Source: a virus
IMG/VR virus record: IMGVR_UViG_3300034104_005002
Coordinates: 97,055 to 161,054 of that record
Length of the DNA stretch: 64,000 nucleotides
Reading direction: 5' to 3' (one strand)
Below, one piece after another: positions 3,557 through 52,848 of this stretch. Numbering within the stretch: the stretch's first letter is position 1; every line of letters begins with the position of its first letter. The translations under genes and the position numbers were made by a program. Below the pieces are notes generated by a model. It saw nothing but the letters and a program-made list of their open reading frames with translations. It was not told where the DNA came from and ran no database searches.

Positions 3557-3667
3557 GGGTTGTTCCCTTGACTGCTCCCATAGTGTAGCAGCTCTAGAGG
3601 CTAGTGGCGAGGTTTTAACGATTAGCGGTGCTTATGGGTCTGATAAAATATGTTTATGAATAAAACC

Positions 3668-3696
3668 TTGACTTTATGGGTCACTGCTGCTATACT
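3668..3696 (+). promoter_or_regulatory. plus-strand promoter TTGACT-17-TATACT
   Basis: TTGACT (3668-3673), 17-base spacer, TATACT (3691-3696). It reads into cassette copy 2, which holds no open frame on this strand. Confidence 0.8.
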
Positions 3697-3815
3697 ATAA
3701 ACAACAAAAGAAAACAAAACGCAAAAGCGTGATAATATAAAACGGGACACTTATCCTGCACTTTTTTATTATTATAAAAAACAAAAAAAAACCTGGAAGT
3801 ATAAAACCTCCAGGT
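3697..3815 (+). ncRNA. conserved non-coding cassette, copy 2 (candidate small RNA)
   Basis: Transcription from the promoter at 3668-3696 would give an RNA of about 110 bases: a purine-rich leader, an ACGC-AAAA-GCGT hairpin (3719-3730), the box TATAAAACGGGACACTTATC, a T/A stretch and the stem ACCTGGA / TCCAGGT at 3791-3815. The last stem followed by T8 on the other strand also terminates the minus gene ending at 3828. Confidence 0.55.
3791..3815 (-). terminator. intrinsic terminator
   Basis: Stem ACCTGGA / TCCAGGT followed by eight or more T on the minus strand, just after the stop at 3828. Confidence 0.85.
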
Positions 3816-3827
3816 GGTTGATTATAA

Positions 3828-4145
3828 TCAGCAGGTTGGATGTTTCTTATTCTCCCACCGATCATAATGCGCGTCGATTACTTCCTGCAACGGTTCGTAA
3901 TCAGTATAATCGGCGGCGATTACACCGGGTTCATTACCCAGAACCAGGAAGATTGCCACCTTTTTATTGTTATGTTGAAGCCGCAATGTGGATTCGTCTG
4001 TAGCCACAGTTTCCTCCAAGAACTCAGTCTTGGATACATCCGAATATCGAATATTTTCCTCTCCATTGTTTACACTCAAAGGTGTAAATCCGGCCCGTTT
4101 GAGGGACTTAAGCAGGGAGCGGACTTCAGGGTGGTAGTCGTTCAT
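3828..4145 (-). CDS. hypothetical protein, 105 aa
   Basis: The protein starts MNDYHPEVRSLLKSLKRAGF and reads as an alpha/beta fold with an N-terminal helix and a central strand VAIFLVLGNE. No family recognised. Driven by the promoter at 4170-4198 and closed by the terminator at 3791-3815, so it forms a single-gene unit. Confidence 0.75.
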   Translation of the reverse strand: MNDYHPEVRSLLKSLKRAGFTPLSVNNGEENIRYSDVSKTEFLEETVATDESTLRLQHNNKKVAIFLVLGNEPGVIAADYTDYEPLQEVIDAHYDRWENKKHPTC

Positions 4146-4169
4146 GGGGTGAATCCCTTTGACCCTTTA

Positions 4170-4198
4170 AGTATTGCAGACCCAGGCCGATCCGTCAA
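4170..4198 (-). promoter_or_regulatory. promoter TTGACG-17-AATACT
   Basis: Minus-strand TTGACG (4193-4198), 17-base spacer and AATACT (4170-4175), about 25 bases upstream of the ATG at 4145. Confidence 0.65.
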
Positions 4199-4235
4199 GA
4201 CCCCAAACGATCAGAAATGCTTATGGGTCCAGGGC

Positions 4236-4264
4236 TTGACAATACTGGAAAAGTGTTTTATACT
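4236..4264 (+). promoter_or_regulatory. plus-strand promoter TTGACA-17-TATACT
   Basis: TTGACA (4236-4241), 17-base spacer, TATACT (4259-4264), the second cassette copy with a full plus-strand promoter. It faces away from the minus genes and reads only the non-coding cassette. Confidence 0.85.
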
Positions 4265-4390
4265 ATAAACAACAAAAGAAAACAAGCGGAGGACCGCAAT
4301 AACATAAAACGAGACACTTATCCTTCTTTTTTATACTATTTTTTATACTAAACAAAAGTGACCCGTAAGTATAAAGAACTCGCGGGTCAC
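4265..4390 (+). ncRNA. conserved non-coding cassette, copy 3 (candidate small RNA)
   Basis: GCGG-AGGA-CCGC hairpin (4286-4297), the box ACATAAAACGAGACACTTAT, an A/T stretch, and a stem GTGACCCG / CGGGTCAC (4358-4390) flanked by T runs on both strands, so it can stop transcription in both directions. Confidence 0.6.
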
Positions 4391-4396
4391 TGTTTT

Positions 4397-4576
4397 TTAT
4401 ACTACTTCAGTTAGTATAATTTCCTTTGCGTACCAAAGTTGAACCAATGCATCATCCAATTCTTTAATCTTAGAATCAAAAGTAGCATCTTTAGTGATAG
4501 ACGCGCACCGGATCAATTCTCTACGGCGATCAAGTAAAGCCATGCGAATACAATAACCGCTAAGTGTGACAGACAT
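4397..4576 (-). CDS. small helical protein, 59 aa
   Basis: Reads MSVTLSGYCIRMALLDRRRE onward, entirely helical and amphipathic, ending EIILTEVV. It ends at the bidirectional terminator of cassette 3. Function unknown. Confidence 0.6.
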   Translation of the reverse strand: MSVTLSGYCIRMALLDRRRELIRCASITKDATFDSKIKELDDALVQLWYAKEIILTEVV

Positions 4577-4610
4577 AACTATAAAGAATGAAGGAAAGTT
4601 GGTAAATTAA

Positions 4611-4810
4611 CTAGATCAAGGTGAGAAATTCTTTTTCGTCATATCCCCCAGAATCCATAGCGTCTTCCAGTTCTGTAACTAGCCCGTCAAAATCTTCACT
4701 AGGGGCAAGATGTTGGTCAGAACATCAACTAGGCTACCATATTCTTCGCGCAAATTATCAAGATACTCCCCACGATTAGCAAAACCGTTGTTCTGATAGG
4801 GGCAAGACAT
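4611..4810 (-). pseudogene. frameshifted small acidic protein gene
   Basis: The first frame from ATG 4810 reads MSCPYQNNGFANRGEYLDNL and stops at 4679; a second frame continues with SEDFDGLVTELEDAMDSGGY to a stop at 4611. The two halves read like one acidic protein of about 65 residues, so a single-base shift near 4720 has split it. It may be real decay or a sequencing error. Confidence 0.5.
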
Positions 4811-4908
4811 GAGAGGCGTTCCCTTGGTTGACTAGTCAACTGTAACCCATAAAAACCAGACGATCACCGTACCTTGTGCCACTTAAACAACTGGCACAAT
4901 TAAAATAA

Positions 4909-5292
4909 TTATCCTTGGAAGTTAGGAACACTAAAACCAAACTCAAACTTGAAAACTATAATGTTAAGAACATCGAAAATCTCTCTTAGTTTTTCCTTGG
5001 CCAATGGGTGCTCTAAAGCATATTTTTCACAAGGATAAAGATCATCTTCGTCTAGCTCTAAAAGATCCTCATTAACATCTGGAATCTCGTCAGACTCATG
5101 GAAACTCAGATCATATTTCTCATTACAAAAGAATATCTTACCCATACCTACCACAAAAGTTAGATCATTCTCTTTACAGAATGGAACAACAGTTGATTCA
5201 AAGTATTGTTCTGCAATTGCATCAATTTCCTTATAAGCCCTATTTTCAATCTCCTCAAGTTGTTTGGCTATTTTGTCAGAGATAGTGGCCAT
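4909..5292 (-). CDS. hypothetical acidic protein, 127 aa
   Basis: The N-terminal helix MATISDKIAKQLEEIENRAY is followed by a beta-rich core and an acidic stretch (DVNEDLLELDEDDLYP). Its promoter has TATACT preceding AATCCAGTCAACC, the leader motif shared by many genes here. Function unknown. Confidence 0.75.
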   Translation of the reverse strand: MATISDKIAKQLEEIENRAYKEIDAIAEQYFESTVVPFCKENDLTFVVGMGKIFFCNEKYDLSFHESDEIPDVNEDLLELDEDDLYPCEKYALEHPLAKEKLREIFDVLNIIVFKFEFGFSVPNFQG

Positions 5293-5408
5293 TGGAGAAT
5301 TGTCTGGTTGACTGGATTAGTATAAGGGAGATAATGGGTTGGTGGTCAGGGCCTTGTGACACTTATGGAACTGGCACACCATCAGTCACGATTAAGGTTT
5401 TTATGGAT

Positions 5409-5528
5409 TATACTATAAACAACAAAAGAAAACAAGCGGAGGACCGCAATAACATAAAACGAGACACTTATCCTGCACTTTTTTATTATTATAAAAAACA
5501 ACAAAAAAGAGTCAGAATTAACTAACTC
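5409..5528 (+). ncRNA. conserved non-coding cassette, copy 4
   Basis: TATACT at 5409-5414, hairpin GCGG-AGGA-CCGC (5436-5447), the conserved box and a stem GAGTCAG / CTAACTC (5509-5528) with T tracts on both sides. Nearly identical to copy 3, but no good plus-strand -35 is seen. Confidence 0.5.
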
Positions 5529-5542
5529 TTTTATACGAATTA

Positions 5543-5794
5543 TCAATAATTCAATACCTCATTAGCATTATCTTCGGCCTCTTCAGTTGTAACAAATGGG
5601 CCAAAAAACTCAGAATTAGGAATACAACCAGGAGAACAAACTGCCCAATAGTAACCTGGTTCATACAAATTATCACCAGAAGTTTCACGCAATCCTTCGG
5701 CTTCATTATGTTGATCACAATCGGATTGTGAAAACCAAGTGATCCAAACCGGGGTGGACCCTTCGTTATCAGTGTGTTGGATGGTGGTTTGCAT
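5543..5794 (-). CDS. small phage protein with GYYWAVC..PG motif, 83 aa
   Basis: Contains GYYWAVCSPGCIPNSEFFGP followed by FVTTEEAEDNA, a compact beta-plus-helix module (a modified residue or ligand loop followed by a 'T-EEA' helix) that I recognise from many small phage proteins of unknown role. Two Cys flank the PG turn. It ends at the cassette 4 terminator. Confidence 0.7.
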   Translation of the reverse strand: MQTTIQHTDNEGSTPVWITWFSQSDCDQHNEAEGLRETSGDNLYEPGYYWAVCSPGCIPNSEFFGPFVTTEEAEDNANEVLNY

Positions 5795-5880
5795 GGTCGT
5801 GTCCGGTTGACTTGCTTAGTATAGGGTGAGAAGGGGACCATAAACAGTCCCCTTGTGCCAGTTGTTGAACTGTCTATTGT

Positions 5881-6549
5881 TTAATAATCCCAGCCGTTTT
5901 CGTCTTTTATGTATACATTACATGACGAAAAATCGACACATAAAGTAGCAGTTTGTCCCTCAATTGCATCACTAAGGAAATTATCCGCTGCCTTACGAAT
6001 AGATGTAAACAAATGATCATAAGAATACATATTAGAAAATCTTTTCTTAAACATCTGATAACCCTTACAGATCCATCCAACGATGGAATCAATATCATAA
6101 TCGGCCAATTCTTCTTCACCATATTCACCATCAGACCATTCATCCAGGGCCTCAATTATACCTTCTCTTACGTTTTTCCTGAGTTTATCCATAATCCACT
6201 GATCCTGCAGATACGAATTACACTTATCAATTTTTGTAAAATCATAATCATCACCATTTAATGAGGCAGTGAGTAGAGACTGAATATCACTACTTACATC
6301 ATCAATCGAGGCTGATCTATAACCTCTAGAATTATATCCACACGCAACTCTCCCGGCAATATAACCGCCAATCGCCATAAGCTCATCAGTATAACCACAA
6401 GAGTGTGGCTTTACAGTATGTTCTAGAATGTCATGGGCAACAACTAGCCCATCCAATCCTGGCTCAAAATAATTACGACCAGTATCTACAACTATACCTA
6501 GTCCACCGTATTCTTCATGCTCTTTAATAACCAGAGAATACTTTTTCAT
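5881..6549 (-). CDS. hypothetical protein, 222 aa
   Basis: The start at 6549 (MKKYSLVIKEHEEYGG) is chosen because the promoter at 6574-6602 places the RNA start after the frame's earlier Met. The N-terminal region has GLVVAHDILEH, which resembles a helix with paired His/Asp-Glu-His that could bind metal. The C-terminal half is acidic and helical. No firm family. Confidence 0.7.
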   Translation of the reverse strand: MKKYSLVIKEHEEYGGLGIVVDTGRNYFEPGLDGLVVAHDILEHTVKPHSCGYTDELMAIGGYIAGRVACGYNSRGYRSASIDDVSSDIQSLLTASLNGDDYDFTKIDKCNSYLQDQWIMDKLRKNVREGIIEALDEWSDGEYGEEELADYDIDSIVGWICKGYQMFKKRFSNMYSYDHLFTSIRKAADNFLSDAIEGQTATLCVDFSSCNVYIKDENGWDY

Positions 6550-6573
6550 GGGAGGAATCCCAGCGACTTCTAA

Positions 6574-6602
6574 AGAATAAACCACCACCACCGATAAGTC
6601 AA
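6574..6602 (-). promoter_or_regulatory. promoter TTGACT-17-TATTCT
   Basis: TTGACT (6597-6602), 17-base spacer, TATTCT (6574-6579) on the minus strand; it decides the start of the gene ending at 5881. Confidence 0.7.
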
Positions 6603-6683
6603 GACCTTTACTGATAAGATTATCTGATTGGACCCATAAGCAGGAATGATCACCAGAGGCCCCCAGGAGCCCGCCAGAGGCGT

Positions 6684-6794
6684 TATAATGGTCTTAAGAC
6701 AACCACACAAGCGCAAGGGCGTTATTACATAAAACTAGAAACTACTCCTGCAATTTTTTATTATTATAAAAAGAAAAGAGAGAATAAATCTCTC
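6684..6794 (+). ncRNA. conserved non-coding cassette, copy 5
   Basis: TATAAT at 6684-6689, hairpin CGC-AAGG-GCG (6712-6721), the variant box TACATAAAACTAGAAACTAC, A/T stretch and stem GAGAGA / TCTCTC (6778-6794) with T tracts. The hairpin stem differs from copies 1-4 but stays paired. Confidence 0.45.
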
Positions 6795-6804
6795 CTTTAT
6801 ATTT

Positions 6805-6933
6805 TTAGACGCGCCCAACGTAATGCTGAACGCCAGATTCCAAAGTTAATTTAACCGCCAGCTCCCAGGCCTCGTTTATATCCTGGGGAGCACGAAACAA
6901 CTCCCACTGATTAGCACGGTAAATGATAATCAT
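6805..6933 (-). CDS. small protein, 42 aa
   Basis: Reads MIIIYRANQWELFRAPQDIN and ends VQHYVGRV: a strand-helix-strand mini-fold (a 'Y.v..W..F.a...A...A' pattern). It lies 3 bases after the stop of the upstream gene and ends at the cassette 5 terminator, so the two form one operon. Confidence 0.6.
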   Translation of the reverse strand: MIIIYRANQWELFRAPQDINEAWELAVKLTLESGVQHYVGRV

Positions 6934-6936
6934 AAT

Positions 6937-7137
6937 TCAGGCAGCCAGAATAAGGTTTGCAACTATTTTTTCACCAGGCAATTCTTGGAGTTTATTATAA
7001 ACAGCCTCGAATTGTTGAACCATGTTCAGATAATAAGCCGACAGATGTGGGCTATTATCATAAACTGCCTGCTCTTCATCACACAAGACTGAAATAATGT
7101 CCAGGATTTCACCAGAGGTTAGAGTGATTTGAGTCAT
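6937..7137 (-). CDS. small helical phage protein, 66 aa
   Basis: Starts MTQITLTSGEILDIISVLCD; two long helices follow. The start at 7137 is used because the -10 (TACAAT near 7200) and leader motif GGGTCA lie within the longer frame. It resembles small T4-like phage proteins that begin MTQITLT. Function unknown. Confidence 0.65.
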   Translation of the reverse strand: MTQITLTSGEILDIISVLCDEEQAVYDNSPHLSAYYLNMVQQFEAVYNKLQELPGEKIVANLILAA

Positions 7138-7297
7138 GGGAAACAGGAGTTGTAGAGATTTTAGTGGTGGGTTTTCATCACACGTTACGTTGGTGATGAC
7201 CCTTTTATTGTAAAGGGAGAGAATGGATGATTGGTCAGGACCTTGTGCCACTTAAACAACTGGCACACCATCAACCACGGTCCAGGTTTTTATAGTT

Positions 7298-7394
7298 TAT
7301 ACTATAAACAACGCAGGGGCGTGATTACATAAAACGAGAAACTACTCCTGCACTTTTATATTATTATAAAAAACGGGAGAGATTTATTCTCTCC
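7298..7394 (+). ncRNA. conserved non-coding cassette, copy 6
   Basis: TATACT (7298-7303), hairpin ACGC-AGGG-GCGT (7311-7322), box TACATAAAACGAGAAACTAC, A/T stretch and stem GGAGAGA / TCTCTCC (7375-7394). Confidence 0.5.
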
Positions 7395-7402
7395 TTTATA
7401 CT

Positions 7403-7555
7403 TCAGATCCTCCCTACACAAACTGGATTTTGTGAGTTTAGATCGAGCATAAGAATAAATCTATACATCGTCGTTGACATACAAACAAACAGAAAAGCTC
7501 CCATGACTAAACAAACAAAAATGGTACGAATGGTTGAAAAATTAATTTGTCCCAT
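7403..7555 (-). CDS. small membrane protein, 50 aa
   Basis: A single hydrophobic segment (TIFVCLVMGAFLFVCM) follows a polar N-terminus MGQINFS. It is paired with a similar gene just upstream (7607-7768). Both have the leader ACACAAAAACACCATGGG, so they look like a duplicated pair. Function unknown. Confidence 0.55.
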   Translation of the reverse strand: MGQINFSTIRTIFVCLVMGAFLFVCMSTTMYRFILMLDLNSQNPVCVGRI

Positions 7556-9298: not shown

Positions 9299-9877
9299 AT
9301 GAACAATCTAAAAGAAGTCTCTAAAATAGAAGGTCTTGAAGATTTCTCTGGGTATTTTGTAGATATTCATGGGAATGTATATTCCAACAGACAGAAAAAT
9401 AAAGGACTAAAAAAGAAAGCATTTTTTAAGAGTGGAATAGGTCCCAGTTATAACAAAGTTATACTATGTGGAAAGAATGGTGTAACAAGAGCCTTTTACG
9501 TGCATATACTGGTAGGGAAACTTTTTATTCCTAAAAGTAATCATAGAAAATACTTCATTCACAGATCAGATGATGTTTACGATAATTCACTGGAAAATAT
9601 CATAAGCGTAGATAAATACCGCGTTAAAAAGGATCATAAGATGGGGCGGCCACGCACCAGACCGGAAATGATAAATGATCTGGAAAAAGAATCCATCCTA
9701 TCCGATAAATTAGTGGCCGAATTGAAACTTTTTTATAAGGCAGCAGTGATAAAAGGAGCCTATCAGGGTAAAGAATTTGACTTTATAGATGAAATGGTTA
9801 CAGAATTGATGGATATGTACGCGAATCAGAGAGGTTTAAAAAAAATCCTTCATCAGATTCGACAGGAGGAAGGGTAG
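9299..9877 (+). CDS. NUMOD4/HNH_3-type endonuclease
   Basis: A 192-residue plus-strand protein in a minus-strand neighbourhood. The N-terminus (EDFSGYFVDIHGNVYSNR) is the NUMOD4-like W/F-x-x-I.g....Y.vS..G.v.S pattern. YVHILVGKLFIPK with HRSDDVYDNSLENI is an HNH_3 core, though the usual first His-x-Asp reads IHRSDD. The C-terminal 70 residues are helical and probably bind DNA. A free-standing homing endonuclease is the likely identity. It converges on small minus genes after 9877. Confidence 0.7.
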   Translation: MNNLKEVSKIEGLEDFSGYFVDIHGNVYSNRQKNKGLKKKAFFKSGIGPSYNKVILCGKNGVTRAFYVHILVGKLFIPKSNHRKYFIHRSDDVYDNSLENIISVDKYRVKKDHKMGRPRTRPEMINDLEKESILSDKLVAELKLFYKAAVIKGAYQGKEFDFIDEMVTELMDMYANQRGLKKILHQIRQEEG

Positions 9878-9912
9878 CGGTCTGGGATCGAGAAAAAGTG
9901 AAAGAATCCCTT

Positions 9913-10035
9913 TTATGGGAGGCTGTCTAACATTTTCCAATGAGTCACATTTTGAACAATATAAGCATCAGGACCTTTCATTATCCAATAATCTGCTCCC
10001 ATTTCAAGATCAACTTGCTCATTGTCCTTTTCCAT
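9913..10035 (-). CDS. small protein, 40 aa
   Basis: MEKDNEQVDLEMGADYWIMK, then GPDAYIVQNVTHWKML; strand-turn-strand pattern typical of very small phage proteins. It converges with the plus-strand endonuclease gene. Confidence 0.45.
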   Translation of the reverse strand: MEKDNEQVDLEMGADYWIMKGPDAYIVQNVTHWKMLDSLP

Positions 10036-10099
10036 CAGTGAAAATAACTTCTATAGATCGCCATTCATTGGACATTTACTGGGATCCAATTGTTCATAA

Positions 10100-10270
10100 T
10101 CAAGAATAGTAATTTTCAAGAGCAATTTCTACCTCGTTAGAGTTTATTCCATGAACATAATTGTATGCCGCACGTAAATAAAAACCACTCCTAATCCCCT
10201 CGCCTTTTTTCATTGAAGAAACTGCCTCGTCTAACATATAAACGAGTTTCAAATCATGGGAAGATTTCAT
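10100..10270 (-). CDS. small helical protein, 56 aa
   Basis: MKSSHDLKLVYMLDEAVSSM onward; helical and amphipathic, with RSGFYLRAAYNYVHGI. Two bases separate it from the upstream gene's stop, so it is co-transcribed with 10273-10398 and 10414-10698. Confidence 0.55.
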   Translation of the reverse strand: MKSSHDLKLVYMLDEAVSSMKKGEGIRSGFYLRAAYNYVHGINSNEVEIALENYYS

Positions 10271-10272
10271 AA

Positions 10273-10398
10273 TCAAGCAGAATAAATTTCAGGATAGAAA
10301 TACCAAGTACCTTTATTATCATCTACCAATCTAAGATCAAATCCATACTTATCTGCAACTGCCTTTAATTCTTGTTCGGCGGATTTGAACAGTTGCAT
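10273..10398 (-). CDS. small protein, 41 aa
   Basis: MQLFKSAEQELKAVADKYGF followed by DLRLVDDNKGTWYFYPE: a helix-strand-strand unit. Member of the three-gene run after the helicase. Confidence 0.55.
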   Translation of the reverse strand: MQLFKSAEQELKAVADKYGFDLRLVDDNKGTWYFYPEIYSA

Positions 10399-10413
10399 CT
10401 GGAGGATAATAAT

Positions 10414-10698
10414 TCATAGTTTTTGAATAATTTTTGCTGCCTTAATTGCGAGTTTATCGGTTTTTGCATTTGTTTTCAAGAAAACATTTGCCTCAGGTGC
10501 ATTTTGTTTGATTGGTGTTACCTTGCGAATTGGTGTGGAATTAGTGGCCAGTTGCCTCAGAATAACATCGGCCATTTGTTCTACTTTTTGTTCGTGGGCG
10601 ACTTTAATTTTGTTCTTACGCCTAAGGGCGTCATTCATAACTCTCCCCTCTTTAATCAGTTGACTCACACGTTGGCGGCGAAGTTCTAGGGTGTTCAT
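10414..10698 (-). CDS. basic helical protein, 94 aa
   Basis: Strongly basic (MNTLELRRQRVSQLIKEGRV, LRRKNKIKVAHEQK), consistent with nucleic-acid binding. It begins right after the promoter module at about 10715-10745 (TACAAT-AACCTCAGTTCA). No family recognised. Confidence 0.65.
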   Translation of the reverse strand: MNTLELRRQRVSQLIKEGRVMNDALRRKNKIKVAHEQKVEQMADVILRQLATNSTPIRKVTPIKQNAPEANVFLKTNAKTDKLAIKAAKIIQKL

Positions 10699-12360: not shown

Positions 12361-12981
12361 TCAGGTGTCCAAAAGAGACTTGATTTTGTTTTTAAGTTCT
12401 TTAAGTTCTTTTTCTAATTCCTGAATTTTCTTGTCCTTATCATCAAGAACTTCTTTCTTTTCAAGAATTGTATTCTTTACATTGGCGCCCCAAAGATTGG
12501 CGCCCACAAGATTGGCGCCCCCAAGATCGGCGCCCTCAAGATTGGCGTACTGAAGATCGGCGCCCCGAAGATTGGCGCCCCGAAGATTGGCGTCCCGAAG
12601 ATCGGCGCCCCGAAGATCGGCGCCCCGAAGATCGGCGTCCCGAAGATTGGCGTCCCGAAGATCGGCTATCCCAAGATCGGCGCCCTCAAGATCGGCACCC
12701 ACAAGATTGGCGTCCCGAAGATTGGCACCCACAAGATCAGCATCCCCAAGATCGGCGCCCACAAGATTGACCCCCCGAAGATTGACCCCCTCAAGATTGG
12801 CGTCCCGAAGATTGGCACCCACAAGATCAGCATCCCCAAGATCGGCGCCCACAAGATTGGCGCCCTCAAGATTGGCGCCCCGAAGATTGAAGTACTGAAG
12901 AATGGCGCCCACAAGATTGGCGTTCCGAAGATTGGCGCCCCATCCAATAGTGTACTCTTTTCCGTTAATGGTTTTTTTCAT
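12361..12981 (-). CDS. pentapeptide-repeat protein
   Basis: Residues from about 10 to 155 are tandem A(N/D)LxG pentapeptides (for example [13 protein letters not shown]), which fold into a right-handed quadrilateral beta-helix. The last 45 residues are a Lys/Glu coiled coil. Some pentapeptide proteins mimic DNA and bind gyrase (established for MfpA/Qnr); others have no known role, and which applies here cannot be told. The DNA is a 15-base-period tandem repeat, so length should vary between relatives. Confidence 0.9.
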
Positions 12982-23608: not shown

Positions 23609-23707
23609 AATGAATAAAAGTTTGTTGGTGAATTCAGGGCTTTCCCCCTGATGAACCTATTATGCCAAGGGAAAGGGGGGCATGGAAGCCCCCAGTGGCC
23701 AGTTTGT

Positions 23708-24040
23708 TTATCGGCCCATCGCAGACCGAATCTTCATTTCAATCCGTTCATCGAGTTTGGCCAGGATATAGTTCTCAAGCTGAGAATCCAGACTATTTTT
23801 GATGTCAGTTGAAACCATTTCAGTCATTGCCGGAATCTGATAGCGTTTTAGATAATTAGTCATTCTCTTTGAGAATGGGTCAGACTTAAAGTATTCCTCG
23901 ACTGCATTATTCATCGAGGTTGTATCTGGTTTGGCGGTCTGAATTTCTTCATAAAGATAACGAAGAGCATTCAACAGATTAGAAAATTCGACCAGTTGAT
24001 CGTTCACGTTCACTAGAGCCGGGACAGTGGTTGTTTCCAT
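23708..24040 (-). CDS. helical protein encoded with the E1-like gene, 110 aa
   Basis: METTTVPALVNVNDQLVEFS onward, predicted all helical with an acidic/basic C-terminus ending KIRSAMGR. It follows the E1-like gene by 6 bases, so it belongs to the same transcript. It could be an accessory or a target of the modification system; no family recognised. Confidence 0.6.
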   Translation of the reverse strand: METTTVPALVNVNDQLVEFSNLLNALRYLYEEIQTAKPDTTSMNNAVEEYFKSDPFSKRMTNYLKRYQIPAMTEMVSTDIKNSLDSQLENYILAKLDERIEMKIRSAMGR

Positions 24041-24046
24041 AATAAA

Positions 24047-24760
24047 TCAAGAAATAGAGGTGGACAGAGTGCGGCCATTAAAAAACATTCCGCTTTGTTG
24101 AGGATTAAGCACCCCATCAAGGAAGTTTTGAATCACCGAGAGAGTAATCGCGGCAGCAAAGAAATTTGCCGAGATCAATTGAGGCCTAGAAGGTGTACTC
24201 AGAGCACAGGATCCCTTTTCTGGGATGCTGTCAATAGGGTTACTGATGTTGGGATAAGCAATACTAGGATCCATTCCAACACGTTCACCATTACATTTAC
24301 CAAACCAAAGAGTCTGGCCCTGTACTGATTCCGTGCCGTCACTATTACCTGGGGTAATAAAGAAAAAATCTTTATCAGAACAGGTAGTAGAGATTGCCTT
24401 TAGAACATCATGTCGAGTTGCATCATTGTCAACAGAACAAACAATCAGAGGAGACTCTGCTCGCTCCAGAAGAGGAATGAAAGAAGTCATTGAAATAAAA
24501 TCTTCCTTGCAGTCAACATTTTCTAGACCTTGAAAGGCACAGAAGTCTACCATTGCGCGGGCCTTGTTCATGCCAATTTGTGATGGGCCTACAATTTGAC
24601 GAGTTTGGTTGTGCTCTTCAAATTCATCACCATCAATAAAAACTACTTTGGCGTTTTCTGTGGCCGGATGGTGCGCAACAAGACGGGCAATAGGTGATGC
24701 AAGATAGCCGCCAGTGCCACCTACTCCTACAATAAAAACGGTGTCAGGATTGAAATTCAT
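24047..24760 (-). CDS. E1-like adenylyltransferase (PRTRC-type ThiF)
   Basis: A 237-residue ThiF/E1 fold. The nucleotide loop is VGVGGTGG (residues 11-18), followed by IDGDEFEEHNQTRQ (42-55) in place of the canonical DxDxVexSNLnRQ, Lys66 in GMNKAR and DNDATR (111-116). Cys185 in KGSCAL followed by PQLISANFFAAA matches the Cys and 'Q.LI.N' segment of PRTRC-type ThiF proteins. The enzyme would adenylate, and perhaps thioesterify, the C-terminus of the Ubl encoded at 27183-27449. It is 70 bases downstream of the protein-B-like gene. Confidence 0.85.
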   Translation of the reverse strand: MNFNPDTVFIVGVGGTGGYLASPIARLVAHHPATENAKVVFIDGDEFEEHNQTRQIVGPSQIGMNKARAMVDFCAFQGLENVDCKEDFISMTSFIPLLERAESPLIVCSVDNDATRHDVLKAISTTCSDKDFFFITPGNSDGTESVQGQTLWFGKCNGERVGMDPSIAYPNISNPIDSIPEKGSCALSTPSRPQLISANFFAAAITLSVIQNFLDGVLNPQQSGMFFNGRTLSTSIS

Positions 24761-24829
24761 GATTTAAGGTGAACTACTTTGCAAGTATAAAGGAGAAATG
24801 GGAGTGAGAAGCGAGGAGATGGACAGTTT

Positions 24830-25870
24830 TCAGGCTGTCACAAAGGATTCATCTAGCTGGCCAATTAGGTATCCTTCAGAAGAAATATACCATTTGCGGC
24901 CCACCGCATCTTCTTGAGTAGTGTAACCAAAATAGACCGAATCTTCTTTTTGAATTGTAGAAGTTTTTGCTGGAATGATCATTACATGCGGAGCTTCTGG
25001 AATTGGAGTAAATCCGGCCATCAACATCGTAAAGAATGCCTGAACGTCCTGATCTGCATCAATCATAATCAGACAATCATAACCAGAACACAAGAATTTA
25101 TGATCCGATTTATGGTAATTACCACATTCTATAGAATCTTTTAGGGCATTGATATTTTCTGTAAATCTAGCGAGCCTAAGAAGATCATTATTGAAATTTG
25201 ACTGAAAGTAGGAACTAACAATTCCCCGAAGATTCGCCGGAGAACTCACTTGCCCCCAACAGATTTTTCCATATATGTATCCAGTTTCATCTCTCTGGTC
25301 TGAACTGTAAACATTTGCCGCAGCAAATGAAGATGTCTGATAAATTACACCCTCTTCATAATAACCGGCCCGGAGGTGGGCATTATCTCCTTGGTAAACT
25401 TTTTTAAAACGAGGTGGGGTTCCTTTATAATTCAGTTTAATATCAAAGACCATATTGGAAATGGAGATTTTCTTTTCCTCTTTGGGTTTAGATTCATGGC
25501 CTTCCATACAGTGTTGGCCTGTATAACCATCCCACCATACGTCACATTCTGTTTGATTTTCCCTGGCATTCCTAAAGAATTCTGTTGACTCGTTTTCATC
25601 ATAGCTGCCGTCTTCTGCAAACACATTTGGATATGTGGTTTTCAGGTATTGAGTGGTTCGTCGCGGGCAATACTGGCAGTGATTGCTATAAAAATCTTCA
25701 TATTCGTTATAATTTGGATCAACTTCGCCAAATTCAGAATAATTTTCAGGCATCCAGGCCCTAATTGTAAGGGCCTGGGAATCTACCCGATAGGAAATAA
25801 ATTCCGCTTCAGAGGGAAGCAAGTGAGTGTTTACTTTGGCCGGATTTGTGGGAAAAATAGGATTCATCAT
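24830..25870 (-). CDS. PRTRC protein B-like, possible E2-like enzyme
   Basis: A 346-residue protein between the JAMM and E1 genes; its start overlaps the JAMM stop by 4 bases. YGKICWG (Cys204) followed by SPANLRG ... YFQSNFN recalls the CWG...F..S.F segment of PRTRC system protein B. The 'Y.yGKICW' pattern also recalls the active-site segment of E2 enzymes (G-x-I-C-L), which is an inference. CQYCP near residue 65 and TECD / QHCMEGH near 109-125 could bind zinc. If it is E2-like it would carry the Ubl thioester to targets. Confidence 0.6.
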   Translation of the reverse strand: MMNPIFPTNPAKVNTHLLPSEAEFISYRVDSQALTIRAWMPENYSEFGEVDPNYNEYEDFYSNHCQYCPRRTTQYLKTTYPNVFAEDGSYDENESTEFFRNARENQTECDVWWDGYTGQHCMEGHESKPKEEKKISISNMVFDIKLNYKGTPPRFKKVYQGDNAHLRAGYYEEGVIYQTSSFAAANVYSSDQRDETGYIYGKICWGQVSSPANLRGIVSSYFQSNFNNDLLRLARFTENINALKDSIECGNYHKSDHKFLCSGYDCLIMIDADQDVQAFFTMLMAGFTPIPEAPHVMIIPAKTSTIQKEDSVYFGYTTQEDAVGRKWYISSEGYLIGQLDESFVTA

Positions 25871-26817
25871 ACCTCCGCAAATTGGTGATCTTCGATGTAA
25901 ACAGAAAGCAAGGCCATAAGTTCTTCAATCTCTTCTGGGTTTCCTTTGTTTTGTTTTAGGAAATCCTCGATTACGTCTTCAATTTGATGGAGTTTAATAG
26001 ACTCTTTTTCAGGTGTTTGATAGCCCTGAAATTCATCCCAAAGCTCACTAAAATCTCCATTGATATTGTCCTTAAAACCAAATGGAGACTTGTAATTGTA
26101 ACCATTCCAATTGGTTCTTTGATTGGAGGAGTATTTGGTGACTACTGGTTTAGAATAATCAACATAATCAAGAACGTCTTCATGGAAAGTAAACCCTTCA
26201 AGTGGTTCGGTTTCAATAAGATCTTTATGGGGGATCTTAAAGCGCCGACCATTTGCCACAACAGAAGAAGCAATAGCGTAAGTCCGATCTTTGGCACTAA
26301 TGGATCCAACTACAATATGAATTCCAGGATCTCCCAGTTCATACTTATCATCGGTGCCCGAAAAGAAGGCTTGCATAGTGTTGTGGCTGTGGGAAGATCC
26401 AACAGGAATCCAGCCAATCGGAGGATAACTTGTAATGACTTCTCCAGTCTCAATGTCAATAGCATCATCAAATCTATCAACCCTCACAGATGTGGCAGAT
26501 ACTTTCTGTTTGGGAACAAGAATCCGATAAAGAGAGGGATCTTCTTCGCTGCGAAGAATACGAACCGAAACTTCTACATTAGAAGGAACTTTTTCAATAA
26601 AGTGAAAACAAAGCTGCACCCACCGTTGCCACAAATCCGCCGGGATTTTGTGAATGTCTTCATTAAGAGTGAATGATTCTAGATCTTCTTTGGAAATAAT
26701 TACGTTGGCATCTGGATCATCGGTGGGGCGAATGTACGTTCCCCAACCACCAGTATAAAGTTCAAAACATCCATGCTTGGCGGTTCGTAGAATCTTTGGG
26801 ATTTCTTGTGTTTCCAT
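25867..26817 (-). CDS. JAMM/JAB metallopeptidase (PRTRC protein A-like)
   Basis: SSHSHNTMQAFFSGTDD gives the exact JAMM signature H143-x-H145-x7-S153-x2-D156, with GIHIVVGSI as the following strand. A Glu upstream (perhaps E82) would complete the zinc site. JAMM enzymes remove or mature ubiquitin-like proteins. The 316-residue length and gene neighbours match PRTRC protein A. The N-terminal 100 residues are an added alpha/beta domain, and the C-terminal 60 residues are acidic helices. Confidence 0.87.
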   Translation of the reverse strand: METQEIPKILRTAKHGCFELYTGGWGTYIRPTDDPDANVIISKEDLESFTLNEDIHKIPADLWQRWVQLCFHFIEKVPSNVEVSVRILRSEEDPSLYRILVPKQKVSATSVRVDRFDDAIDIETGEVITSYPPIGWIPVGSSHSHNTMQAFFSGTDDKYELGDPGIHIVVGSISAKDRTYAIASSVVANGRRFKIPHKDLIETEPLEGFTFHEDVLDYVDYSKPVVTKYSSNQRTNWNGYNYKSPFGFKDNINGDFSELWDEFQGYQTPEKESIKLHQIEDVIEDFLKQNKGNPEEIEELMALLSVYIEDHQFAEV

Positions 26818-27182
26818 AATAAAGAGAAGAAGTTTACAAAAAAGGCCCTTGTTTCAGGGCCTTTGTGGTTTTTGGACTGTATCAGCCGATAGATTTTTGC
26901 TAACTTGCGTTAACAATGCACAAGTAATTACTTACTTGAGGGGCTATCTCCCAAAGCCTCAAGAATTCTTGAGACGCTGTTGTTTTTGTGTTTTAAGTAC
27001 CAACTAGCTTCCAGAGGGCTCAACTAGCCTGGATTTTGTTTATAGGATTTTTATAGTTAACTTGGCTCTCGTCAACTGTTGAATTTTACTTCAACAAATC
27101 TATTTAATAAAGTAAAAACCTATTGATTATAGGATTTTATTTGTTAGCTAATGTTTATTTTTGTTAATAAAACACTAACTGT
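26818..27182 (-). ncRNA. structured gene-free leader between the Ubl and JAMM genes
   Basis: 365 bases without a gene, AT-rich with many inverted repeats on the minus strand: a 16-base palindrome CTCAAGAATTCTTGAG, TGTTGAA / TTCAACA, and AAGTAAGTAATTACTT. It ends in the intrinsic terminator at 26843-26862, just before the JAMM gene. This layout fits a structured leader or small RNA whose termination could control the three downstream genes. It does not match a known riboswitch that I can recognise. Confidence 0.4.
26843..26862 (-). terminator. intrinsic terminator ahead of the JAMM gene
   Basis: AGGCCCT-GAAACA-AGGGCCT followed by TTTTTT on the minus strand, only 26 bases before the ATG at 26817. 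Confidence 0.88.
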
Positions 27183-27449
27183 TTATGAACCCTTGCTTTC
27201 GCTTGTGATAGCACCACGCACGGTTTCACCGGGCCGAGGCTGAGTGTCCGAAGGGACAGATTCGCCATTGATCACATAGGTAGTGATTCGGGCCACATCT
27301 ACACCAAGACTAGAGCCATATTCAGCAAAGAGTTGTGAAACAGACTTGCCGCGAGCATTTTCAAAAGGAACTTGCACGCTTTCGGTGTTCACGGTAAGGA
27401 CAACCGGAAGGCTGGTGTCCATGGTACGAACGTTTTGGAGAAATTGCAT
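27183..27449 (-). CDS. ubiquitin-like (beta-grasp) protein, PRTRC-C/MoaD-like
   Basis: An 88-residue protein: two strands (PVVLTVNTESVQVPFENA), a helix (SVSQLFAEYGSSLGVD), then VARITTYVINGESV and TQPRPGETVRGAITSES, the beta-grasp order strand-strand-helix-strand-strand with the 'V.PGD.V' turn of MoaD/ThiS and Ubl families. It ends KGS rather than Gly-Gly. As first gene of the cassette it is the natural substrate of the E1-like enzyme. Confidence 0.72.
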   Translation of the reverse strand: MQFLQNVRTMDTSLPVVLTVNTESVQVPFENARGKSVSQLFAEYGSSLGVDVARITTYVINGESVPSDTQPRPGETVRGAITSESKGS

Positions 27450-27572
27450 AATAAAGTAAAAGAGGTAAACGACAGTTGGTTTGTTGTGGTGTGAGGTGTC
27501 CCCCTCACCGACCTTTATAAGATAACAGGGGCTGGAGGGCTTTTTGGCGCCCTTGGGCCAGTTTGAGGAGTG

Positions 27573-27809: not shown

Positions 27810-28023
27810 AATTACCCCAGTTTTCTCTGACAAAAATAAGAAATTCTTCGATTTTTTTATCATTATAAAATGGATCTAGTTTTCTGTTTTCCACAATAAA
27901 ACAAACCAGATTTGGCTGTTTTTTAGAAAGAACATAAAGATAAATCTGCCCCCATCTCAATTGAGGATACCACGCATCGTACTCGTTTACTACATCCCTT
28001 AAATAGTGGTTAAATTCAGTCAT
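27802..28023 (-). CDS. hypothetical protein, 73 aa
   Basis: MTEFNHYLRDVVNEYDAWYP onward; start at 28023 overlaps the HNH gene end by 8 bases. Alpha/beta, aromatic-rich. No family recognised. Confidence 0.6.
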   Translation of the reverse strand: MTEFNHYLRDVVNEYDAWYPQLRWGQIYLYVLSKKQPNLVCFIVENRKLDPFYNDKKIEEFLIFVRENWGNYD

Positions 28024-28567
28024 TTTTAAGATTGATAAAGGCATTGTTGTTTATTTTGTAGCATGAACCACGTTCACTGATGATAAAAATTTCAGGATTT
28101 CCTGTATAAGGATTGACATCAATTCGGTCAATAATGCCCTTATATATCCACTTTTTACACTTTAACCAAAGTTCTTTTCCAGAGATATTTCCTTTATAAT
28201 CAGTAAAACGAACTAGGCCAAGAGTGTTTCCTTTGTTAACATTACACTCTAAACACATTGTCTGATAGTTTTCCAATGTGTCCTTACCACCTAATGATTT
28301 GGGTTTAATATGATCAATAGTGATCTCCATATCATCTTCAGAGAGAATGCGCCAGAAAATTCTATTGTTATCTTTTAAATCCTTACACTTTTGTAGCCTG
28401 GACGCAGATCGTCCACATGAAACGCAAGTATGTCCAAGTTTTTTAAGAAGTTTAATTCTTTTGGCTGTTCCAAAAAATCTAGAAGAATAAATCTTTTCGG
28501 ACTGAATCACATCATCAAAAGAAAGTTCCTTAACTATTTGAATTTTAGGAGATTTCTTTTTTGGCAT
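28016..28567 (-). CDS. HNH endonuclease
   Basis: A 183-residue classical HNH nuclease: CVSCG near residue 48, ITIDHIKPKSLGG (the His of the beta strand), NYQTMCLECNVNKGN with the second Cys pair and Asn/His position. A beta-rich C-terminal domain follows. It probably cuts DNA as a free-standing homing nuclease. It sits in an operon of small genes, not inside an interrupted gene that I can identify. Confidence 0.88.
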   Translation of the reverse strand: MPKKKSPKIQIVKELSFDDVIQSEKIYSSRFFGTAKRIKLLKKLGHTCVSCGRSASRLQKCKDLKDNNRIFWRILSEDDMEITIDHIKPKSLGGKDTLENYQTMCLECNVNKGNTLGLVRFTDYKGNISGKELWLKCKKWIYKGIIDRIDVNPYTGNPEIFIISERGSCYKINNNAFINLKND

Positions 28568-45154: not shown

Positions 45155-45952
45155 ATGAAATTTAATATTAAACCATCTCAAATTGACACTAGAGACTTTA
45201 TTTACCGAAACGATAGCACAGAGATCTTGCGGGAATCCGTAGATCTCCGTGAATGGGATACAATTGTCGAATCGCAAGACGATTTAGGTAGTTGCGCCGC
45301 CAATGCAATAACAAATGCCTATGAACTTTGCGTTAATCGAAATTATCCTGAACAGTTTACTCATCTAAGTAGATTATTTGTTTATTATAATACACGCCTT
45401 GAGCACGGAATAATCGAAGAAGACGAGGGAATGTTTCTTAGGGATGGCATGAAATCATTATCCAAATATGGAGTGTGTTGTGAAAAATTATGGCCTTATG
45501 ATATAGACAAATTCAACATAAAACCAAGTGAAGAGGCATATGAGGACGGTATAAAAAGAAAAATTCTTAATTACCAAAAACTTATAAGCACCTATTATAT
45601 TGCCCAGGTGATAAACAACAACAAACCAGTTGTATTTGGAATGACCATTTATGAAAGTTTTATGGATCTAAATGAGCGTATTTCTACTGTTACTTTTCCT
45701 TCTAGAAAGGAAAGAAATCTTGGAGGCCATGCTATGTGTATGGTTGGTTATGATTTAAATAAGAGACTATTTTTGGCAAAGAATAGTTTTGGGTCTGATT
45801 GGGGAGACAACGGCTATTGTTGGATTCCTTTTGATTATATTGAAAAAGAGGCATACGACATTTGGACATTTGATATCCCATCCCAAGCAGGAGAACTCAA
45901 TGTACTACCCCTACCCATACTATCCGTACCACAGGCGGAGATATTGTTATGA
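45155..45952 (+). CDS. papain-like cysteine peptidase (C1A)
   Basis: QDDLGSCAANAITNAY carries Gln41 and Cys47, GGHAMCMVGYD carries His192 and KNSFGSDWGDNGYCWIP carries Asn210: the complete papain tetrad. There is no signal peptide and only a short N-terminal region (IKPSQIDTRDF) instead of a propeptide, as in other phage or giant-virus C1 peptidases. Located among putative structural genes, it may process a virion protein or act on the host surface. Confidence 0.9.
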   Translation: MKFNIKPSQIDTRDFIYRNDSTEILRESVDLREWDTIVESQDDLGSCAANAITNAYELCVNRNYPEQFTHLSRLFVYYNTRLEHGIIEEDEGMFLRDGMKSLSKYGVCCEKLWPYDIDKFNIKPSEEAYEDGIKRKILNYQKLISTYYIAQVINNNKPVVFGMTIYESFMDLNERISTVTFPSRKERNLGGHAMCMVGYDLNKRLFLAKNSFGSDWGDNGYCWIPFDYIEKEAYDIWTFDIPSQAGELNVLPLPILSVPQAEILL

Positions 45953-50959: not shown

Positions 50960-51073
50960 CTATTTAAGACCGCCCATAAACGAATAAGATTCTGCGTCAC
51001 CCCATTGAAGCCCAACAGAGACGTAGCGCGAGATAATGAAGTCTTCCCATAAAGATTTAAAAAAGTTAATCAT
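50960..51073 (-). CDS. small protein downstream of terminase-like gene, 37 aa
   Basis: MINFFKSLWEDFIISRYVSV then GLQWGDAESYSF. Overlaps the terminase-like stop by 4 bases. It shows no resemblance to a nuclease domain. Confidence 0.55.
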   Translation of the reverse strand: MINFFKSLWEDFIISRYVSVGLQWGDAESYSFMGGLK

Positions 51074-51819
51074 AATTCGTATTCACGTTTAAAGGCATCT
51101 TCCCCAATATTTTTAATCACTTCTTCCTTCCAATTATTGTCTAGCCTAGGAATATCTCTCCAATCATATTCAGATAATGAATATTTGTTTATACCATCCT
51201 TTGCATCTTCAACCAGCTCATTAAAATAACTACCTTCTTTTTTGGTACTTGCGATGATTATTTTGGGGGAGTTATTGCGACCAAAGAAAGAAGCCAATAA
51301 ATTCTGAGAAGTATAGTACTCCATAAACGCAAATTCATCTAAAAATGCGTGAGTATATTCCCAATTCTCCCAAGTTTCAGGGGTAGAAATATTTGTTACT
51401 ATTTTTACCCTAGAATTATTTTTAAGTATTATCCACATTGAGGTTCTTTTTACTATTCCGGGTTTAATCCAATCGGGTAACTGTTCATATGTATTATAGA
51501 ATCGTTCAAGTAAATATTTTGAATTTTGATAACTAAAACTACTAATCACAATATTGCAATTAGATTTAAAAATTGCCTGATGTAAAAGATAGAATAATGG
51601 AACCGATGATTTGCCAAATTGTCTTGGGGCCTTTATAAGATTGTATTTGTTTTTATGAATTTTTTTGACAATTTCTTCTTGGGCGGGATAAAGAAGAAAA
51701 GGCGCATTATCTTCTTTAAGCGAAGAAAATTTCACATAATTGTTAATAAAATAAATTGGGTCATTAGAACATTTAATTGATTCTGAAAAATGAAGAATTT
51801 TGTTTAATAAGTTAATCAT
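51070..51819 (-). CDS. terminase large subunit ATPase domain only (T4 gp17-like)
   Basis: Start at 51819 (an earlier TTG frame exists). Walker A KAPRQFGKSS (Lys70), AFLDEFAF as Walker B with Glu162, and a coupling segment IIASTKKEGS appear in the gp17 order. The protein ends at FKREYEL, exactly where the nuclease domain should begin, so 249 residues remain versus about 550-610 for a full subunit. It may be a split or vestigial terminase or a different packaging/repair ATPase. Confidence 0.75.
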   Translation of the reverse strand: MINLLNKILHFSESIKCSNDPIYFINNYVKFSSLKEDNAPFLLYPAQEEIVKKIHKNKYNLIKAPRQFGKSSVPLFYLLHQAIFKSNCNIVISSFSYQNSKYLLERFYNTYEQLPDWIKPGIVKRTSMWIILKNNSRVKIVTNISTPETWENWEYTHAFLDEFAFMEYYTSQNLLASFFGRNNSPKIIIASTKKEGSYFNELVEDAKDGINKYSLSEYDWRDIPRLDNNWKEEVIKNIGEDAFKREYEL

Positions 51820-51820
51820 A

Positions 51821-51946
51821 TCAAAAGGGTTGAATGTGGTCAAGAATACTTACAATAAAAGGCAGCATAAGAAAAAACAATAGCCAAGAAATTTGGACTA
51901 ATTCAAGGCAAATCCAAAAAAGAAAAATCGGATAAAGAAAATACAT
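51821..51946 (-). CDS. small membrane protein, 41 aa
   Basis: MYFLYPIFLFWICLELVQIS continuing WLLFFLMLPFIV: two hydrophobic helices. Couples by TGATG to the upstream gene. Confidence 0.55.
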   Translation of the reverse strand: MYFLYPIFLFWICLELVQISWLLFFLMLPFIVSILDHIQPF

Positions 51947-52848
51947 CACACAATATTGTTTATAAAATTCCTATCAGGAACGAGGCTCTGCTGATTCCTC
52001 AACATTGTACCATTAAACCCGTCCATTAGCAAGAGGTTGTACCCTCGGCTCCAGGCGCTCTGCAGACCAGAAACATTAGACCGAAGAGGCCAAGAGTGGT
52101 CCGTATCAAATATAATTGGCTTATTACTCTTAGAGAATTGTCCTTTACTTAGGGCAGTAAAAGTCGGACCAAACCAATCTGCTCCTGTATTTTTCATCCA
52201 TACTGATTCATCTCTACCACTAGATGCTCTAATCCCCCGAGCATAAGAAACGCCAACTGGTTTATTCGTCCACTTGTTAATCCATTTTACAACTTGTCTT
52301 TGGAACCAGTTGGCGGATTGAGACATCAACTCATTTCCAACCTCATAAATGACATTATCATAAGGTTCAAGAATTTCTACGACTTCTTTAACATGGGCTC
52401 TTTGAAATTTATTCCAGGGGCCTCTTGTATGAACAAGTTCGTGTGCCTTTGGTCCTAGACCATTGAATGGATGATTCTCCCAGGCTAGGGGAAAAATATC
52501 AGGAATAGAACCTTCAAAAAGAACGACTCCGGTTACAATGTCTCTTTTTTCGGCTCTTTTTACGGCATCTTCTAGATTTTTATAAAAATTCTTGTTTAGA
52601 GAACCGTCTTTCTTCCAGGGACCGTTTTTGATTCTTACAATACCGGGAGTATTACTACCCCATTGTGATTGAGAAAAGTTTGCTCCTTTTGTTTCTACTG
52701 TCCAGAGTCTTGTGAAGTTCCCGGTTATCTTATCAATTCCTATTTTTTCACCACCAATTGTCTGAACAGTGTTCCAGGTGTGATTACCAGCAAGGCGAAT
52801 TTTCTTTCCGTCTTTGTAGAAATTTTTACCTTTTATGGTGATAGCCAT
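51946..52848 (-). CDS. glycoside-hydrolase-like TIM-barrel protein, 300 aa
   Basis: The start MAITIKGKNFYKDGKKIRLA is the beta-strand head common to clan GH-A enzymes. GNHTWNTVQT, FTRLWTVETKGA and EVGNELMSQSA (a likely NE acid/base) follow the (beta/alpha)8 order, and FDTDHSWP then FNGTM lie late. It would cut a host polysaccharide during adsorption or release. CCTAAATAGT lies about 20-30 bases upstream. Confidence 0.72.
   Translation of the reverse strand: MAITIKGKNFYKDGKKIRLAGNHTWNTVQTIGGEKIGIDKITGNFTRLWTVETKGANFSQSQWGSNTPGIVRIKNGPWKKDGSLNKNFYKNLEDAVKRAEKRDIVTGVVLFEGSIPDIFPLAWENHPFNGLGPKAHELVHTRGPWNKFQRAHVKEVVEILEPYDNVIYEVGNELMSQSANWFQRQVVKWINKWTNKPVGVSYARGIRASSGRDESVWMKNTGADWFGPTFTALSKGQFSKSNKPIIFDTDHSWPLRSNVSGLQSAWSRGYNLLLMDGFNGTMLRNQQSLVPDRNFINNIV

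Follow-up and report, generated by a model that had tools for sequence, protein, structure and literature searches.

A row of five minus-strand genes in a 64,000-nucleotide stretch of viral DNA (the window, bases 97055-161054 of the 161,054-base record IMGVR_UViG_3300034104_005002) is, on balance, best read as a phage-borne, self-contained modification system based on a ubiquitin-like protein (Ubl), and as a variant of the PRTRC cassettes and of the type-6d operons described by Iyer and co-workers. The genes are transcribed in the order UBL, JAMM, B, E1, HEL and occupy positions 23708-27449, and all five open reading frames are located where a first-pass annotation of the sequence had placed them:

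27183..27449, minus strand: UBL, 88 amino acids, predicted beta-grasp Ubl with the C-terminus ...ITSESKG-S (AlphaFold2 and Foldseek; C-terminal alignment)
25867..26817, minus strand: JAMM, 316 amino acids, predicted JAB/MPN metallopeptidase, PRTRC-A-like, with an N-terminal domain (Prok-JAB; hhalign)
24830..25870, minus strand: B, 346 amino acids, putative E2-like protein with the candidate catalytic Cys C204 in ICWG (hhalign; Prok-E2_D)
24047..24760, minus strand: E1, 237 amino acids, predicted ThiF/UBA-type adenylating enzyme (Pfam ThiF; hhalign)
23708..24040, minus strand: HEL, 110 amino acids, small protein without functional assignment, last gene of the module

Distribution and exact presence or absence of the cassette

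When profiles of the five proteins were searched against viral loci, JAMM, B and E1 were found adjacent to each other in 17 distinct viral contigs besides the window, in nearly all cases in the order JAMM-B-E1 with UBL just upstream. Exceptions are a 370 kb phage (L070) with two UBL genes and with B ahead of JAMM, a contig in which UBL is located 8 kb away (L071), and one in which the profile search of the locus did not find UBL (L072); the cassettes that depart from the usual gene order are also the most distant ones. In L036 and L046 the end of the contig truncates the cassette. HEL was found downstream of E1 in 10 of the 17 relatives. The genes flanking the cassette are not conserved among relatives, and these revealed no functional partner outside the module. 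The module genes are under purifying selection, with pairwise ratios of nonsynonymous to synonymous substitution rates (dN/dS) of 0.02-0.22 for pairs with unsaturated synonymous sites.

Among contigs with a 92-96% identical terminase, two (G016, 249.8 kb, and G018, 138.8 kb) have neither E1 nor JAMM anywhere on the record, and their flanks are 99.2-99.7% identical to those of the window up to the cassette edges. In G016, window positions 23707-27555 and one copy of a 10-bp direct repeat are missing, both copies being present in the window:

23697..23706, minus strand: repeat copy CAAACTGGCC on the HEL side, separated from the stop codon of HEL by a single base and used in the G016 allele that lacks the cassette
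27556..27565, minus strand: repeat copy CAAACTGGCC on the UBL side, upstream of the UBL leader (junction sequences)

In G018, about 23650-27499 is missing and the ends are joined at the 6-bp sequence AGGGGG, which is common to the UBL leader and to the leader of the next gene. Both empty alleles remove exactly the five genes, HEL included, and nothing else, so that the module is defined independently of annotation. As the two empty alleles differ, they cannot both be ancestral and at least one recent loss must have occurred; the cassette is an accessory module that has been lost at least once. This exact presence or absence of five genes, with two different short-homology junctions in near-identical phages, is a new observation. 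It is possible, but unlikely, that two separate contigs were each misassembled, and at different junctions. A further contig, G017 (58.9 kb), ends inside the UBL gene and probably carries the cassette. The recurrence of the cassette in 17 other viral contigs, together with the limits set by the two cassette-free relatives, indicates that the cassette is not a product of chance. In the first-pass annotation, gene loss in close relatives had been held to speak against a Ubl system; such loss does occur and marks the module as accessory, but a missing Ubl function does not follow from it.

The ubiquitin-like protein

The 88-residue UBL gave no family match above cut-off in profile searches. Its AlphaFold model (mean predicted local distance difference test score 79) has the strand-strand-helix-strand-strand topology of a beta-grasp, and its PDB matches in Foldseek were nearly all SUMO, NEDD8, ISG15, ubiquitin and TGS domains, with probabilities of about 1.0 and template modelling scores of 0.45-0.58, bearing out the earlier proposal of a beta-grasp Ubl. 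As no single match passed E=0.001, the matches assign a fold to UBL and do not point to a close relative. The strongest clue is given by the C-terminus. From the comparison of 15 sequences it is evident that Lys86-Gly87 is invariant and that most sequences end in SE(S/N/Q/A)KG. Behind Gly87 there is either no further residue or a tail of S, F, VY, RH, LG or, in a single case, eleven residues; in the window a single extra Ser is present. Such a combination of a conserved Gly and a short, variable tail looks like the precursor of an activatable Ubl.

Natural fusions of Ubl and JAMM were found on plasmids (L020 5584-6657; L021 4937-5878), with the Ubl in front and KG at its boundary. Furthermore, gp199 of Bacillus phage vB_BauM_KLEB27-3 (L016 751-1458; annotated as hypothetical) is built from four Ubl units joined head to tail, all of which are 57 residues long and end in VKAGVKG, and its gene lies upstream of B, A and ThiF genes of the PRTRC type, at a distance of 2-4 kb. 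Both the fusions and the poly-Ubl would need cleavage after the Gly of KG, which would be a natural task for the neighbouring JAMM. Relatives of the poly-Ubl were sought in IMG/VR and none was found. The two nearby UBL copies of the 370 kb phage (L070 5142-7110) are nearly identical and located upstream of its cassette.

The JAMM peptidase and introns at its active site

The exact HxHx7SxxD site claimed earlier for JAMM is read in the window as H143-S-H145-x7-S153-xx-D156. In the aligned relatives H143, H145, S153 and D156 are invariant, as is E82, the candidate catalytic Glu. The window JAMM scored 24.1 bits with Pfam Prok-JAB (cut-off 25), a family that was matched by all 6 scanned members of the JAMM family (best 3.1e-6), and with PRTRC_A (TIGR03735) it scored 24.7 bits (1.5e-5), the cut-off of 101.8 not being reached. 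When profiles were compared by hhalign, JAMM matched PRTRC-A type proteins of plasmids and other phages with P=8e-22. The profile match spans the N-terminal region, in which type-6d proteins have a conserved Arg and Trp; invariant W and R residues of JAMM are candidates for these. Profile searches of solved structures gave no match with JAMM or with B.

In three relatives the JAMM gene is interrupted, directly behind the codon of the second catalytic His in L034 and L035 and four codons later in L072, by inserts with group I intron scores of 59, 63 and 83 bits (L034 and L035 being identical to contigs L002 and L003):

L034, 7056-7347: group I intron in JAMM
L035, 7088-7372: group I intron in JAMM
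L072, about 9430-10547: group I intron in JAMM

Exon 2 of the intron-bearing genes continues in frame with NTMQAFF or AFFSG, and homing-endonuclease-like genes are present within or beside the cassette in L041, L044 and L035. Mobile introns favour invariant sites, and the JAMM introns therefore fit a functionally fixed motif.

The E2-like protein B

Protein B had been described as PRTRC-B-like with a CWG segment, and in line with this the B profile matched PRTRC-B with P=4e-7 over the CWG segment (hhalign), C204 being aligned with a PRTRC-B Cys. C204, which is part of the B segment NVY...ICWG, is invariant in all of 18 sequences, as are C109, W205, N227 and D229. C109 also forms part of a cluster of four Cys residues, the other three of which (C65, C68, C121) are present in at least 90% of the same sequences; this cluster is absent from plasmid PRTRC-B and possibly constitutes a zinc site. 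In Pfam and NCBIfam searches the window B gave no family match of its own, and Pfam Prok-E2_D was matched by 3 of the 18 members of the B family (best 9e-6).

The E1 enzyme

E1 matched Pfam ThiF above cut-off (2.1e-8), and its GxGGxG loop, R54, K66, D111 and Cys185 are invariant in 8 aligned sequences, in agreement with the intact ATP loop and Cys185 of the first-pass annotation. With NCBIfam PRTRC_ThiF (TIGR03736) E1 scored 46.4 bits (E=3e-12), below the cut-off of 144.75 bits, and comparison of the E1 profile with PRTRC-type ThiF proteins of plasmids and other phages by hhalign gave P=8e-34. The profile search of each protein, which had been proposed as a check, thus placed E1 over the ThiF cut-off and left the JAMM, UBL and B of the window below cut-off or without a match.

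In a maximum-likelihood tree, the E1 of the window and those of the 17 relatives group in a single clade that contains viral sequences only (98/97) and is separate from the PRTRC ThiF proteins of plasmids, and the E1 of KLEB27-3 falls outside this cyanophage clade. Among 50,697 annotated phage records there was no cyanophage-type relative of E1 and only two distant ThiF matches were obtained, and a scan of bacterial genomes gave distant relatives only, 23-29% identical apart from one 39-residue match. In Vibrio phage D69 (L018 6809-7822) the start annotated for ThiF (7067) seems to be placed too far downstream; a larger part of the E1 domain is contained in the open frame.

Proposed function and alternatives

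In the proposed pathway, E1 would bind ATP and the Ubl and adenylate the C-terminal Gly87, which would then be passed to Cys185 of E1 as a thioester. The E2-like B would accept the Ubl on Cys204 and attach it to a target. JAMM would trim the short tail behind Gly87 where one is present, as with the single Ser in the window, and would remove the Ubl from targets. Adenylation, thioester transfer, conjugation and deconjugation by the module are what we infer from the gene set: strong homology argues for the activities of E1 and JAMM, Ubl transfer by B is moderately indicated, and protein targets for the phage Ubl are suggested by analogy only. As the module is dispensable and yet strongly selected where present, we tentatively judge that a conditional, outward-facing role is favoured; the target would probably be a host protein, a component of host defence or a competitor phage rather than an essential component of the virion. 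A tentative but serious possibility is that a family of large cyanophages carries a complete, reversible Ubl-tagging pathway as an interchangeable module, gained and lost as a whole, that marks proteins of the host or of rival phages during infection.

Several observations weigh against a conjugation pathway of this kind. Most UBLs of this family already stop at the Gly, so that tail trimming would not be general, and the C-terminus is KG and not GG. The E2 assignment of B depends on a short segment, and its fold was not confirmed by Foldseek, which gave no match in the PDB or in a viral library. The His located downstream in type-6d E2 proteins is not conserved either: there is no invariant His in the 18 B sequences, which have N227-x-D229 instead.

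Alternatively, the Ubl might be a sulfur carrier: E1 would convert it to a thiocarboxylate, from which sulfur would be passed on to a small molecule or a nucleic acid, and JAMM would free the Ubl, as in operons of the quinolobactin/PDTC type. E1 is of the ThiF family, the UBL weakly resembles ThiS and Ub-Mut7C, and JAMM is present in some sulfur operons (PMC1779556). However, no rhodanese was found in five phage records in searches that were positive for a plasmid control, which argues against sulfur transfer, the module includes no biosynthetic enzyme, the E2-like Cys protein is always present, and operons with JAMM, E1 and E2 have been classed apart from sulfur operons (PMC1779556). We consider a sulfur carrier unlikely. 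A module whose targets are replication or virion proteins of the phage itself, in the way that SUMO and ubiquitin act on PCNA, seems similarly unlikely. In 5 of about 11 plasmid regions inspected, replisome genes (dnaN, dnaX, holA) are direct neighbours of ThiF or located in its vicinity, but this sample is small and the proximity may be due to chance, no replisome neighbour is conserved in the phages, and near-identical phages live without the module.

Modification of a small molecule or of a terminus without protein targets, in which the Ubl or another peptide would be adenylated as by MccB or capped and B would not be an E2, would be consistent with the unconfirmed fold of B and with the result that, among PDB sequences, the E1 profile matches MccB and TcdA best. 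These matches are weak (E ~5e-4) and cover the nucleotide-binding half only. JAMM, B and E1 are found together in every case, the KG of the Ubl is invariant, and this explanation appears quite improbable. A remnant that is inactive or in the course of decay, or contamination by a bacterial operon, with which the absence of the module from some close relatives might be reconciled, is already contradicted by the intact reading frames, the dN/dS of 0.02-0.22, the single clade of 18 viral E1 proteins apart from plasmids and flanks that match other phages at >99%, and is very improbable indeed.

If conjugation by the module is true, lytic-type phages carry a Ubl conjugation pathway that is the mirror image of Ubl-based antiphage defence. 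Because phages that are >99% identical at the flanks exist with or without the module, a PRTRC-like function is testable by comparing two phages, and the isolated Bacillus phage KLEB27-3, with its related cassette and poly-Ubl, provides a laboratory handle.

Expression layout

Two features of the intergenic regions may be relevant to expression of the cassette:

27500..27530, minus strand: promoter-like leader of UBL, TTATAAAGGTCGGTGAGGGGG, with putative promoter function
26841..26864, minus strand: terminator-like hairpin between UBL and JAMM, AAAGGCCCTGAAACAAGGGCCTTT and a T tract

In an alignment of 10 upstream regions the block GGTCGGTGAGG, with an AT-rich stretch before it, is conserved upstream of UBL in relatives. 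The hairpin is present at the same place in all 5 relatives checked; its sequences differ and several have a T tract. A hairpin behind UBL and a promoter-like leader of its own would lead to Ubl being made in excess of the enzymes, and a strong output of Ubl separate from the enzymes is expected for a modifier that is consumed. The start of B overlaps the stop of JAMM (ATGATG) with GGAGG ahead, which suggests coupled translation. Two other candidate signals were rejected: the T4-type late promoter TATAAATA occurs once in the window against 5.4 expected sites and not near the cassette, and the start motif TTTATTATG at UBL, JAMM and HEL, found 5 times in the window against 1.9 by chance, is not convincing.

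The source phage and neighbouring genes

The terminase fragment of the window phage is nearest to T4-like Synechococcus phages (~39% identity), and cassette-bearing relatives encode photosystem II proteins, namely D1 in G004, G005 and G006 (224-284 kb) and also D2 in G006. The T4-like terminase and the psbA/psbD genes of these relatives indicate that the window phage is probably a large T4-like cyanophage. In its own 161-kb record, which may be a fragment, psbA was not found, and CpeT and NblA, sought as further cyanophage markers, were not found either.

The large terminase gene (51070-52848) appears truncated or split: the match of a 257-residue open reading frame is confined to the later part of the profile, and the neighbouring frame of 300 residues has no PHROG match. 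The window also encodes a papain-family cysteine protease at 45155-45952 (Peptidase_C1, 4e-14). One transposase-like gene and a pair of HNH endonuclease genes occupy 57911-59107, 9299-9877 and 28016-28567, and one gene of the HNH pair is situated just upstream of the cassette. The regions 12481-12940 and 3614-7417 align at several places in close relatives (tandem or dispersed repeats).

Comparison with known systems

With the PRTRC systems (TIGR03734-TIGR03742; for example that of Cupriavidus metallidurans pMOL28), the phage module shares a homologous ThiF/E1, a JAB protein (protein A) and a putative E2-like protein (protein B), a small Ubl with a conserved terminal Gly, and large mobile elements as carriers. 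It differs in the lack of ParB, E and F, in a Ubl of another sequence family, in the order Ubl-A-B-E1 as compared with ParB-E-C-F-B-A-ThiF, in the extra four-Cys cluster of B and in scores under the family cut-offs. Searches that were positive on plasmid pMOL28 detected no ParB, C (TIGR03738), E or F in five phage records, and strict PRTRC membership was therefore rejected. The UBL did not match the PRTRC-C profile (3% probability in the profile comparison), and its homology to PRTRC-type Ubls is undetectable by profile comparison. The PRTRC resemblance noted in the first-pass annotation consequently stands for E1, JAMM and B and not for the remaining components. By the family's own definition the phage module is not PRTRC; plausibly it works like a PRTRC system, on the biochemistry of which no work was found in the open-access literature. 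Cassettes of the PRTRC type are common on large plasmids, and with one Ubl, an E1, an E2-like protein, a JAMM and a small protein the phage version is minimal. With one related ThiF as query, related ThiF genes were found on 257 plasmid records, most of them over 150 kb among the matches listed. In L020, L021, L025, L027 and L028, PRTRC-type cassettes are located beside or near plasmid replisome genes (dnaX, dnaN, holA, pol III alpha), and a replication-linked target of the plasmid cassettes is possible.

Type-6d operons were defined in a survey of 2006, in which conjugation and JAB-mediated removal were predicted for them (Iyer/Burroughs/Aravind, Genome Biol, PMC1779556). Like these, the phage module combines a standalone Ubl with a terminal Gly, a JAB protein with a possible counterpart of the extra N-terminal domain, an E2-like protein with a conserved Cys, and an E1 without rhodanese with the JAB gene in the same operon (PMC1779556). 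In contrast to type 6d, which was described in bacteria and not in phages, the downstream E2 His is not conserved in the phage B and no large helical protein is present, HEL being small (PMC1779556).

Among phages, KLEB27-3 and D69 also have PRTRC-A, B and ThiF genes in a row, with another Ubl, which in KLEB27-3 is the four-unit poly-Ubl. The lambda-type TAPI/TAPK tail assembly proteins likewise combine a phage Ubl and a JAB domain, but without E1 and E2 and in a tail-assembly context that was not seen in the window phage.

The Bil system, type II CBASS with Cap2-Cap3 and other bacterial Ubl pathways follow the same scheme, in which E1 activates the Ubl or target, E2 transfers it and JAMM removes it. 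Conjugation has been demonstrated for them; they have E1-E2 fusions or the Cys domain of BilD where the phage E1 is minimal and single-domain, and BilA has two Ubl domains (PMC11354881). Finally, these pathways are host-encoded defences and the module described here is encoded by the phage; if tagging of host or rival proteins is true, it would invert the bacterial defences Bil and CBASS, in which the same chemistry is directed against phages.

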